DNA from: Gallionella sp. | Lineage (GTDB): Bacteria > Pseudomonadota > Gammaproteobacteria > Burkholderiales > Gallionellaceae | Length of the DNA: 64,000 bases | Reading direction: 5' to 3' | Assembly (NCBI GenBank): GCA_003153155.1 | Contig: PLWV01000005.1 | Span: 12,340 to 76,339, forward strand | Shown: in pieces, positions 4,845 through 54,502 of the stretch | Layout of the letters: every line of letters starts with the position of its first letter | How positions within the stretch are numbered: the first letter of the stretch is position 1 | Notes under the pieces: model-generated | What the model saw: only the letters and a program-made list of their open reading frames with translations | Database searches by the model: none | What the model was told of the DNA's origin: nothing | Position numbers and translations under genes: made by a program

Positions 4845-5090
4845 TCGTCATTCCGGCGCAGGCCGGAATCCAGCAGTTCAAAGGCTCCGCGTATAACCAG
4901 CGACTTTGCTGGCGTTTTTTGCCAGCTTAGTCGAATGGCTATAACCAATGACTTACCCAGCGTATTTTGCTTGGTTAGTCAGATGGCTAGTAGTCTCATC
5001 AGTCGTTTCATCAGCGGACAAAACCAAAGCGTTATCCCGCTACGCGGGATATGTCAATCAACTGGGTTCCGGCCTGCGCCGGAATGACGG
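4845..5090. repeat. composite repeat cluster in the sdhD-sdhA gap
   Basis: The outer limbs are REP-like inverted copies: GTCATTCCGGCGCAGGCCGG at the left and its complement form CCGGCCTGCGCCGGAATGAC at the right. Between them lie two 60-bp palindromic units (4893-5012, annotated separately) and a short hairpin ATCCCGCTACGCGGGAT (about 5035-5051). The cluster sits inside an operon, so it may affect mRNA stability or the ratio of anchor to catalytic subunits. Confidence 0.8.
4893..5012 (-). repeat. 60-bp palindromic unit nested in another 60-bp unit
   Basis: The inner unit is 4941-5000. Removing it rejoins 4893-4940 to 5001-5012 as exactly 60 bp. On the minus strand both read GATGAAACnACT ... 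CTGGTTAT-like ends. Inner stems are GCTGGC/GCCAGC in the outer copy and CCcAGC/GCtTGG in the inner one. Outer stems are CGACT/AGTCG and TGACT/AGTCA, a compensatory difference. Confidence 0.85.
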
Positions 5091-8358: not shown

Positions 8359-8534
8359 GTAACCAGCGACTTGGCTATCGTTAACCAATGACTTGGTTGG
8401 CGTAGTTTGACAACTTAGTCAGATGGCTATGCAAAGCCTTTTGATAGCCTAGTCGAATGGCTATAACCAATGACTTGCCTAGCGTTTTTTGCTGGGTTAG
8501 TCAGATGGCTAGTTGCACTATCAGTAGTTATTTC
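8359..8534 (-). repeat. three 60-bp palindromic units, two nested in a third, upstream of gltA
   Basis: The outer unit has inner stem GGCTATC/GATAGCC. One unit (about 8381-8440) sits in its loop and another (8463-8522) near its end, with the leftover 12 bases AGTAGTTATTTC at 8523-8534. Total 176 bp, four short of 3 x 60. Stems of the inserted units are GTTG/CAAC and CCTAGC/GCTGGG. The cluster ends only 12 bases before the gltA start and contains its apparent upstream region. Confidence 0.8.
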
Positions 8535-13889: not shown

Positions 13890-14972
13890 ATGGCGACTTT
13901 TTCTGCTTATCGTATCTTTGGTGAAACTACTAGCCATTCGACTGGGTTATCAGACGAAAAACTTTTGTCCGGGCACCCGAAAGACGATAGCCAAGTCGCT
14001 GGTTATGAGGAAGACGGAAAATCCGCCGGGCGTTTCGTCGAGCTGACGCTGGATGATCTTGATCCCGGCGAAGTCGTCATTCAGACTCATTATTCCAGTG
14101 TGAATTACAAGGACGCGCTCGCGGCAACCGGCGCAGGAAAAGTGATACGCCGCTTTCCCTGCGTCGGCGGGGTGGATGTGGCTGGTGTGGTAGTTCATTC
14201 CGACGATACGCGCTTCAAGGCGGGCGATGAGGTGATCGTGACGGGCTACGGCATGGGTGTGGATCACGACGGCGGGTTTGCCGAATATGTGCGGGTTCCC
14301 GCCAACTGGGTGGTGCCGCTGCCGCAAGGGTTGACGCTATTCGATGCGATGGCATTGGGCACGGCGGGGGTTGCTGCCGCGCTGTCCATTCATCGCTTGG
14401 AGCAAAACGAACTGCGCCCCGAAAACGGCAATGTGATCGTCACGGGTGCGACCGGCGGGGTAGCGAGTCTCGCGATCCAGATGCTGGCGCAACTGGGTTA
14501 CCACGTGGTTGCGCTGACCGGAAAAGATACTGAACACGACTATCTGAAATCGTTGGGTGCGGCGGAAATATTGTCGCGCAAAGACTTGGAAATGGGTACG
14601 CGGCCTCTGGAAAAGGCACAGTGGGCCGGTGCACTGGATGCGGTGGGCGGCGAGACGCTGGCGTGGTTGACGCGCACCATGCAGCAGAACGGCGTGATCG
14701 CCAGCTTTGGCAACGCGGGCGGTATCGAATTGAATACCACGGTGATGCCGTTTATCTTGCGCGGCGTGCGTCTGATCGGCATCGATTCCGCCGCCACCGC
14801 CATGCCGTTGCGCCGCCAAATCTGGCAACGCCTGGCAACAGATTTACATCCCAAACTATTGGCGCAAGTGGCGCATGGCGTGCCGTTCACCGGGTTGCCG
14901 CAAGTTTTCCCATTGATGCTGCAAGGCAAGCTGCGCGGGCGTTCGGTGGTCGAAATAAAACCGGCAGCTTAG
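13890..14972 (+). CDS. YhdH/AcuI-type NADPH-dependent oxidoreductase with a repeat-encoded insert
   Basis: 360 residues, MDR superfamily, YhdH/AcuI type (acryloyl-CoA or quinone reductase-like). Features: SSVNYKDALAATG, CVGGVDVAGVV, GYGMGVDHDGGFAEYV, the NADPH-binding TGATGGVASLAIQML, and a C-terminal GVRLIGIDSA. No zinc-ligand set, as expected. Residues 11-39 are not normal for the family: they are encoded by a 60-bp palindromic unit with a 27-bp unit in its loop (13920-14006), 87 bp in frame between MATFSAYRIF and EEDGKSAGRFVEL. Start ATG 13890. Whether the protein tolerates the insert is unknown; the rest is intact. Confidence 0.88.
   Translation: MATFSAYRIFGETTSHSTGLSDEKLLSGHPKDDSQVAGYEEDGKSAGRFVELTLDDLDPGEVVIQTHYSSVNYKDALAATGAGKVIRRFPCVGGVDVAGVVVHSDDTRFKAGDEVIVTGYGMGVDHDGGFAEYVRVPANWVVPLPQGLTLFDAMALGTAGVAAALSIHRLEQNELRPENGNVIVTGATGGVASLAIQMLAQLGYHVVALTGKDTEHDYLKSLGAAEILSRKDLEMGTRPLEKAQWAGALDAVGGETLAWLTRTMQQNGVIASFGNAGGIELNTTVMPFILRGVRLIGIDSAATAMPLRRQIWQRLATDLHPKLLAQVAHGVPFTGLPQVFPLMLQGKLRGRSVVEIKPAA
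13920..14006 (+). repeat. 60-bp palindromic unit plus 27-bp unit inside a coding sequence
   Basis: The outer 60-bp unit reads GTGAAACTACTAGCCATTCG ... AAGTCGCTGGTTAT with outer stem CGACT/AGTCG and inner stem GGTTATC/GATAGCC. Its loop holds the 27-bp unit (13952-13978, AGACGAAAAACTTTTGTCCG then GGCACCC). 60 + 27 = 87, the exact length of the extra 29 codons. Confidence 0.88.
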
Positions 14973-24604: not shown

Positions 24605-24784
24605 GATGTAACAACTGATGCGACTACTAGCCATCTGACTAACCCAGCAAAAGACGCTGGGCAAGTCATTGGTTATAGCCATTCGACTGATGAAACTACT
24701 AGCCAATCCACTAAGCCACCAAAAAACGGTGGCCAAGTGGCTGGTTATAGGCTGGCAAAAGACACCAGCCAAGTCGCTGGTTAT
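24605..24784 (+). repeat. three 60-bp palindromic units: two inserted in a third, exactly 180 bp
   Basis: The outer unit is 24605-24616 + 24677-24688 + 24749-24784 (12+12+36 = 60 bp; inner stem GGCTGG/CCAGCC, outer CGACT/AGTCG). The first insert is 24617-24676 (inner CCCAGC/GCTGGG, outer TGACT/AGTCA). The second is 24689-24748 (inner CCACC/GGTGG, outer CCACT/AGTGG). Both inserts follow ACT and begin GATG. The remainder of this 450-base gap between fabI and ccmA shows no gene. Confidence 0.92.
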
Positions 24785-48142: not shown

Positions 48143-48340
48143 ATGTGTGGCCGCTTCGTCCTGAATGAAAATCCCCGCAAGCTTGCCGATCACTTTTGCC
48201 TTCGACAGGCTCTGATGGAACTACTAAGTATTGAGCTAAGCACGATAAACCCGTGCTAAGTCACTACTTAAGGCCGAACGGTGTGGGGATCTGGACCTCT
48301 CGTCCTCTTGGAACATCGCTCCCTCGACGTGCATCTTTGC
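48143..48340 (+). pseudogene. SRAP (YedK) remnant split by nested repeats
   Basis: ATG at 48143 begins MCGRFVLNENPRKLADHF, the SRAP N-terminus. The frame is then interrupted by a TTCGACAGGCTC...CCGAACGG repeat that itself holds a degenerate 60-bp palindromic unit (48214-48273). SRAP sequence resumes as DLDLSSSWNIAPST near 48292, then is lost. It is a second decayed copy beside the one at 48-787. Confidence 0.8.
48214..48273 (+). repeat. degenerate 60-bp palindromic unit inside another repeat
   Basis: It starts GATGGAACTACT. Inner stem AGCACG/CGTGCT, outer stem TGA(g)CT/AGTCA and AAGTA/TACTT. The flanks CCTTCGACAGGCTCT and CCGAACGG are the two halves of a common TTCGACAGGCTC...GAACGG repeat. 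Confidence 0.75.
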
Positions 48341-54365: not shown

Positions 54366-54502
54366 TGTAGGAGCGGGCCATGCCCGCGAAAGAGTTGATC
54401 GCGGGTACGAAAAACTCTTGATGGAACTACTAGCCATTCGACTAAGCGAGCAAAAAACGCTCGCCAAGTCGCTGGTTATGTCCAAGCACCCGCATGGCCC
54501 GC
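54366..54502. repeat. three-level nest: hairpin repeat containing a 27-bp unit containing a 60-bp unit
   Basis: The host GTAGGAGCGGGCC hairpin (54366-54404 and 54492-54502) is interrupted by a 27-bp unit (54405-54419 plus 54480-54491, that is 15+12), which is itself interrupted by a 60-bp unit (54420-54479). The 60-bp unit has inner stem GCGAGC/GCTCGC and outer stem CGACT/AGTCG. Confidence 0.92.

Follow-up and report, generated by a model that had tools for sequence, protein, structure and literature searches.

A non-autonomous palindromic mobile element of exactly 60 bp in Gallionella and its relatives

We identified in a Gallionella genome a non-autonomous mobile element of exactly 60 bp, with exact ends, which inserts on the 3' side of CT without target duplication beyond a possible single T, takes one orientation within its own copies and shows covariation in its stems. 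We put the odds at about even that this single-hairpin element is moved as a single DNA strand by a HuH-like enzyme acting in trans. A literature search returned no description of the element, and four 13-mers of the unit had no match in the paper texts searched.

The window (the whole stretch of 64,000 nucleotides that was analysed) carries at 24605-24784, on the plus strand, one 60-bp unit interrupted twice by other 60-bp units, and the arrangement of 12+[60]+12+[60]+36 bases given in the original prediction was base-exact. Bases 1-12 of the host unit (GATGTAACAACT) lie at 24605-24616, bases 13-24 (AGCCATTCGACT) at 24677-24688 and bases 25-60 (AGGCTGG...GGTTAT) at 24749-24784, which together make up 60 bases. 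The first nested unit (24617-24676; 80.7 bits in the covariance model) sits between host bases 12|13 (ACT^AGCC) and the second (24689-24748; 85.4 bits) between bases 24|25 (GACT^AGGC), both on the plus strand and both borne out by their joined flanks. Each of them starts with GATG, ends with GGTTAT and lies 3' of ACT, and the predicted stems were all recovered: CGACT/AGTCG, TGACT/AGTCA and CCACT/AGTGG for the outer stem, and GGCTGG/CCAGCC, CCCAGC/GCTGGG and CCACC/GGTGG for the inner one. According to the ORF list, the locus occupies the gap between a minus-strand gene and a plus-strand gene, which we take from their reading frames to be a fabI-like gene and a ccmA-like ABC gene, respectively. 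The whole 211 bases folded better than 200 of 200 shuffles, and when three units were tested on both strands, no more than one of 200 shuffles equalled the native fold in any of the six tests. In a relative with flanks 93% identical (G159), the site of the outer unit is common to both genomes and the nested inserts differ (L266, by eye); other relatives have unit-free spacers of 82-238 bases at this locus, with flanks too diverged for a base-exact empty site.

The unit opens with an unpaired head of 11-12 nt (GATGAAACTACT; common to units, GATGRAACTACT), followed by one long imperfect hairpin: a foot TAGCCA/TGGTTA, a Y.Y mismatch, an outer stem of 5 pairs, an A.A mismatch, an inner stem of 6-7 pairs, whose sequence varies among units with pairing kept, and the loop AAAAGAC. 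The fixed length was confirmed, since all but four of the 148 own-genome matches of at least 60 bits span 60 bases (by eye; three of 59 bases and one of 61), the covariance model itself having 60 positions. Variants comprise a 54-bp subfamily and 61-bp forms; the former, with a shorter inner arm, was seen in at least two genera (L004 1610-1663, L021 1662-1715, L035 1349-1402, L140 1501-1554). Base-by-position statistics were taken from 60-base matches only (75 own and 46 of relatives, 108 distinct): 105 of the 108 end in T, within the GGTTAT end, and the mismatch at 19/53 is T19/C53 in 70 and C19/T53 in 32, together 102 of the 108.

The covariance model, built from 15 own-genome units, returned 9 matches in the 64-kb window, which together with the split hosts make about ten copies, as had been estimated from the sequence. 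The matches lie at 4895-4940, 4941-5000, 8382-8429 and 8463-8522 on the minus strand, and at 13920-14006, 24617, 24689, 48214-48271 and 54420 on the plus strand. The unit at 4941-5000 (minus strand; model match and joined flanks) is nested at 12|13 of a host spanning 4893-5012 on the same strand, of which bases 13-60 lie at 4893-4940 and bases 1-12 at 5001-5012. The unit at 8463-8522 (minus strand) is likewise nested at 12|13 of a host with bases 1-12 at 8523-8534; the remainder of that host, at 8359-8462 on the minus strand, has a 'type B' relative of 56 bp (core 8382-8429) inserted in its loop, and subtracting 56 bases leaves a 60-bp host (counted by hand). On the plus strand, the copy at 13920-14006 is a unit with a foreign 27-bp palindrome (GACGAAAAACTTTTGTCCGGGCACCCG-type) in its loop (87 = 60+27), that at 48214-48271 is degenerate (34.5 bits), and that at 54420-54479 is an isolated 60-bp unit within another dispersed repeat (AAAACTCTT^GTCCAAGCACCCG), for which the closest uninterrupted copies of the target differ by 2 mismatches in 28. 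The window also contains, at 1998-2067 on the minus strand, a match to the Rfam family RF02996 (int-alpA RNA).

Two companion repeats were observed. A palindrome of about 27 bp (CCGAAGAACTTTTGGCCGGGCACCCG-type) occurs inside unit loops and elsewhere is a target for the 60-bp unit (window 13920-14006, L036, L255, L260). The type B relative (GGCTTTGCATAGCC...GGTTAA; window 8359-8462, where it is 56 bp long, L348, L253 5921-6010 and L260 2545-2625) inserts into unit loops. In G199 it lies between arms GCCCGAT and ATCGGGC, and in the own genome it was also seen (by eye) within GTAG-tagged palindromes.

At least 161 model matches were detected in the own genome of 2.75 Mb. The unit was present in 35 of 37 genomes of the window's own genus, own genome included, and in none of 24 genomes from other families (61 genomes searched), in 84 of 100 genomes and 14 of 15 genera of the family, and in 25 of 300 genomes of the order, own and family included (9 in the family and 16 in other families). 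The search of the whole genome and the Gallionellaceae that had been suggested thus recovered the unit in most genomes of the family, and also beyond it. Relatives range from 0 to more than 80 copies; every count of units is a minimum, since scoring covered only a portion of the first-look candidates and stricter filters applied over 40 genomes. A contig pattern scan, which matched only 61-bp variants, gave 19 stretches, whose record titles name Gallionella, Gallionellaceae, Gallionellales, Nitrosomonadales and Proteobacteria MAGs. Plasmid and phage collections gave no blastn match to the unit. Two IMG/VR contigs (L133 and L134; putative viruses) carry a 60-bp unit. The units are mostly intergenic, with 16 of 72 lying in an ORF of at least 150 aa versus 80% of random 60-mers.

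For 47 own copies, we joined the 14+14 flanking bases and compared them with the DNA stretches examined. The joined flanks matched uninterrupted sequence in 36 of the 47 (at most 4 mismatches in 28), 12 of them at 0 mismatches (examples are TCTACCCCCACCCT^AGCCCTCCCCCTGC and CTGGATTCCGGCCT^CCGCCGGAATGACG), and three of these 12 sites were repeats other than the unit (L021:1501, L022:139, L031). Each insertion therefore means a gain of 60 bp, and apart from a possible T no target sequence is duplicated; since the unit nearly always ends in T and a T precedes it, a 1-bp duplication is indistinguishable from none. Empty sites were thus obtained as predicted, but from joined flanks, the window locus in relatives being too diverged for a base-exact one. 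The base at -1 was T in 75 of 75 own units and CT occupied -2,-1 in 69 of them; in relatives, CT stood directly 5' of 40 of 46 units. The predicted insertion after ACT accordingly holds inside own copies, but the general target is CT. The left junction, C|TGATG, is compatible with C|T cleavage, and at the right one, GGTTA|T, there is no CT. Copies in the CCGTTCGCCCTGAGCTTGTCGAAGG repeat lie directly 3' of the CT on their own strand, in either orientation (by eye), with junctions one base apart, CCCT^GAGC (L040, L041) and AGCT^CAGG (L133, L152). Isolated sites hit certain other repeats more than once, each time at an identical base (by eye). There was also an excess of hairpins with the junction at their centre, with a stem of at least 8 at 8 of 91 sites versus 0.7 expected (5 of the 8 being one repeat family) and a mean stem of 3.10 versus 2.70 (sd 0.12).

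The 121 distinct sites comprised 30 nested and 91 isolated ones, at least two of the latter (L030:1663, L032:1663) lying in unit-derived sequence in the same orientation. All 30 nested units were on the strand of their host and 0 on the opposite one, even though the core CTAG reads identically on both strands. We counted 26 own-genome composites with a unit at host 12|13, the second site being 24|25. In the own-genome DNA examined, neighbours within 150 bp were on the same strand in 41 cases and on opposite strands in 2, both with a type B copy, and neighbouring copies among the stronger own-genome matches were on the same strand in 17 of 17 cases. Composites with identical inner units recur at different sites, so that nested composites probably move as one too. 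We found no replication-strand bias, with 53:37 in three complete genomes and 31:42 in the own genome (78 of the 148 matches, on contigs with consistent GC skew).

The mismatch at 19/53 was associated with the target. Among distinct sequences, 16 of 35 C19/T53 units sat at another unit's 12|13 versus 3 of 78 T19/C53 units (p 2e-7), and at isolated sites ACT preceded 11 of 17 C19/T53 units versus 14 of 65 T19/C53 units (p 0.002); both tests took only these two forms, and amplification of composites may confound them. We tentatively raise the possibility of a new class, a single-hairpin mobile element inserted as a single strand in which an internal mismatch helps to choose the target. A scan for other associations between flank and unit gave diffuse signals, which we read as relatedness of copies.

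In the reading that we favour, the unit would move as a single DNA strand. A HuH enzyme (Y1, similar to those of IS200/IS605 or TnpAREP), acting in trans, would recognise the folded hairpin and cleave at the C|T preceding GATG and the A|T following GGTTA; the strand would then be joined into a target C|T made accessible by single-stranded DNA or a hairpin loop, and the insertion would be fixed by replication. The need for such an accessible C|T may explain why palindromic repeats and own copies are often targeted. The use of one strand, the CT, the lack of duplication, the hairpin and the palindromic targets are all signs shared with HuH single-strand joining, and C|T is the cut known for TnpAREP; the missing linked enzyme, the lack of replication-strand bias, the mismatch asymmetry described below and a right junction of TTA|T instead of CT count against it. 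Weighing these, we hold to the mobile 60-bp element as observed, and regard the HuH route as its likeliest mover.

A rather less probable reading is that the unit is an ordinary REP family, mobilised by RAYT transposases present in these genomes. TnpAREP of E. coli is described in PMC8266576 as cleaving at C|T 5' or 3' of REP hairpins, which fits the left junction of the unit. The original prediction that no transposase is present held in that none is linked to the unit, but the own genome contains three Y1 genes. Two of these are typical RAYTs and have GTAG palindromes of their own. Such palindromes, and not the unit, adjoin 20 of the 22 RAYT-type genes inspected (by eye; one own gene included), which argues against this reading; genes without them are L120, L121 and three longer Y1 genes (L009, L126, L128), and 7 of the 30 loci gave no ORF at the filter used. 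Several members of another Y1 group also have GTAG palindromes. The many different GTAG-tagged palindromes carried by the RAYT genes of the family (L099-L118) make up a rich set for RAYT-REP co-evolution. A unit lay near the gene in 2 of 32 Y1 loci, 5 of 30 RAYT loci (E<0.01) and 3 of 12 further loci, the first two sets overlapping; with one unit match per locus, no gene was flanked on both sides, and the transposase gene with matching ends that the original prediction had proposed to look for did not turn up at the Y1/RAYT loci examined. In one case (L351), the unit is located within a GTAG-type palindrome immediately downstream of a Y1 gene. We considered a linked RAYT as the mover and found it unsupported, nearby units being few, single and non-flanking.

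Counts of RAYT genes and units give this reading some backing. In 22 same-genus genomes at least 90% complete they correlate (rho 0.56, p 0.007, kinship ignored), the median unit count being 45 with RAYT and 3 without, and, in these g1 genomes, more than 22 units were found in 11 of the 15 that have a typical RAYT and in 0 of the 7 that have none. The relation fails in g33, where G118 (97% complete) has 37 units and no RAYT over the cut-off, G113 has 34 RAYT matches and 1 unit, and 12 unit-free genomes have 8 to 19 RAYT matches in nine cases (fragments included), 3 in one and none in two. A further genome, G022 (83% complete), has 88 units and no Y1 match. On present data, with the caveat of assembly gaps, RAYTs are thus neither necessary nor sufficient. 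The unit moreover shows no unpaired GTAG (or GGAG) directly 5' of the hairpin, bases 8-11 being C, variable, A and C; the only GTAG lies 3' of the hairpin on the complementary strand, where it is not conserved.

Inner-stem mismatches on the unit strand are A.C in 29 and G.T in 3 distinct contexts (pair 26/46 left out), a hint that the complementary strand is constrained. There they become G.U, the 19/53 swaps become G.A and A.G, and 25/47 becomes U.U, as would suit movement via an RNA that is transcribed, folded and reverse-transcribed, or upkeep as an RNA structure, with folding in the complementary strand. We nevertheless consider this unlikely, given that G.T pairs occur in the foot on the unit strand (14/57 here, 17/54 in another family), that the conserved CT flank and the lack of duplication fit the cut of a DNA strand at least equally, and that at gathering score the window's unit has no match to any Rfam family. 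A hammerhead-like reading of CTGATGA..GAAAC was dropped, as it lacks stem II (by eye). The R-box core of integron attC sites is GTTRRRY / RYYYAAC, and GTTAT plus flank does not fit it (by eye).

The original prediction took covariation to mean that folding is selected or needed for movement. In the 15 training units, double-sided changes affect 10 of 18 pairs and one-sided changes none, and further pair types show no excess over shuffles (473 of 500 reach the observed number). In 48 distinct units of other genomes, double changes occur at 12 of 18 pairs and 95.9% of cells are paired, a percentage biased upward because these units, from genomes outside model building, were picked by a model in which pairing raises the score. 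Of five measures, four had an observed value that 0 of 500 shuffles equalled and one had a value reached by 6 of 500; in slid controls the paired cells drop to 8.7-42.8%. The relatives' alignment comprised 39 of the 46 60-base units of relatives and 10 units of families f43 and f15. Inner arm pairs are perfect in 19 of 54 distinct cases versus 22 of 1080 when these arms are paired at random. Pairing is also kept where the foot changes in family f43 (TAAGC/GCTTA, CAGCCA/TGGCTG). The invariant CTAG before the CCA/TGG stem had resembled a TnpAREP guide motif, which we rejected: f43 has CTAA, CCAG or CCAA there with covarying partners, so these bases are stem and not guide.

Covariation is strong, but by itself does not prove selection. 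Hairpin-templated correction of quasi-palindromes can also yield compensatory changes, and such correction could make the arms agree in copies that are partly passengers of other repeats. Consistent with this, G.T intermediates are nearly absent (3 of 1836 cells with pair 14/57 excluded), composites sharing an identical inner unit occur repeatedly, and many f43 units lie within 190-320 bp repeats, some with inverted ends of about 30 bp (L337-L344 in G224 and G334; L329-L336 in G264; compared by blastn among the stretches examined), so that units also spread as passengers. As the full account it seems to us quite improbable, since an exact 60-bp gain at unrelated sites requires insertion, beyond correction, and 19 distinct perfect inner stems have a fixed length. 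Covariation, empty sites and a fixed length, on which the original prediction had staked itself, were all found.

Least likely of all is that the unit is a 59-bp miniature element of the DDE type that duplicates a single T, a reading which the T at the unit's end and the T before it would allow, but which has against it the internal hairpin with an unmatched head, the lack of terminal inverted repeats, the 30:0 nesting and the lack of a parent element with such ends among the left ends examined. Those 168 distinct left ends, covering part of the genomes, gave no autonomous or long copy: 146 are complete within 40 bases and the other 22 are nested inserts, loop inserts or variants (by eye).

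A DDE MITE thus differs from the unit, which lacks terminal inverted repeats and a target duplication (a 1-bp T being possible). A REPIN consists of two inverted REPs. The unit resembles it as non-autonomous mobile hairpin DNA and differs from REPINs and BIMEs in that a single hairpin inserts on its own and that, within 150 bp, 41 of 43 neighbours share a strand. IS200/IS605 elements and their non-autonomous derivatives make no target duplication, use a fixed short target, are strand-specific and have hairpins, and IS608 shows an orientation bias with replication. The unit is like such derivatives in lacking duplication (with a one-base ambiguity), in inserting 3' of a fixed short target, in strand specificity and in its hairpin; it is unlike them in its single hairpin and in showing no replication-strand bias, and no autonomous relative with matching ends appeared among the left ends examined. 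The IS200/IS605 features are also cited in PMC8266576.

The predicted likeness to REP and RPE elements was supported. With the REP/RAYT systems of E. coli, Stenotrophomonas and Marinomonas, as described in PMC8266576, the unit shares a small palindromic high-copy form, a mismatched hairpin and an adjoining C|T; it differs in the exact 60 bp, the unpaired head, the same-strand nesting and the absence of a unit-flanked RAYT among those found. Like the CGTC-tagged REPs (Rickettsia RPE-4 and RPE-6, Neisseria dRS3; PMC3733652), it is palindromic and without a dedicated transposase, and some REPs are reported there inside other palindromes; unlike them, it has no CGTC tag at either end, its head being GATG-like and its end GGTTAT in 105 of 108 distinct units. 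The main text of that paper has no mention of Gallionella or Sideroxydans, and calls the spread of small gene-less palindromic repeats, with regard to CGTC repeats, an open question (PMC3733652). On this question the 60-bp family offers unusually sharp evidence, with exact ends, many paralogous empty sites, strand-specific nesting, 0 to more than 80 copies per genome and perhaps a connection of the mismatch in the hairpin with the target, which puts both finding the enzyme and testing the mechanism within reach. The element is REP-type in its working, but departs from GTAG REPs, CGTC REPs and REPINs in the features that define them, and is best called a member of the non-autonomous palindromic repeats.
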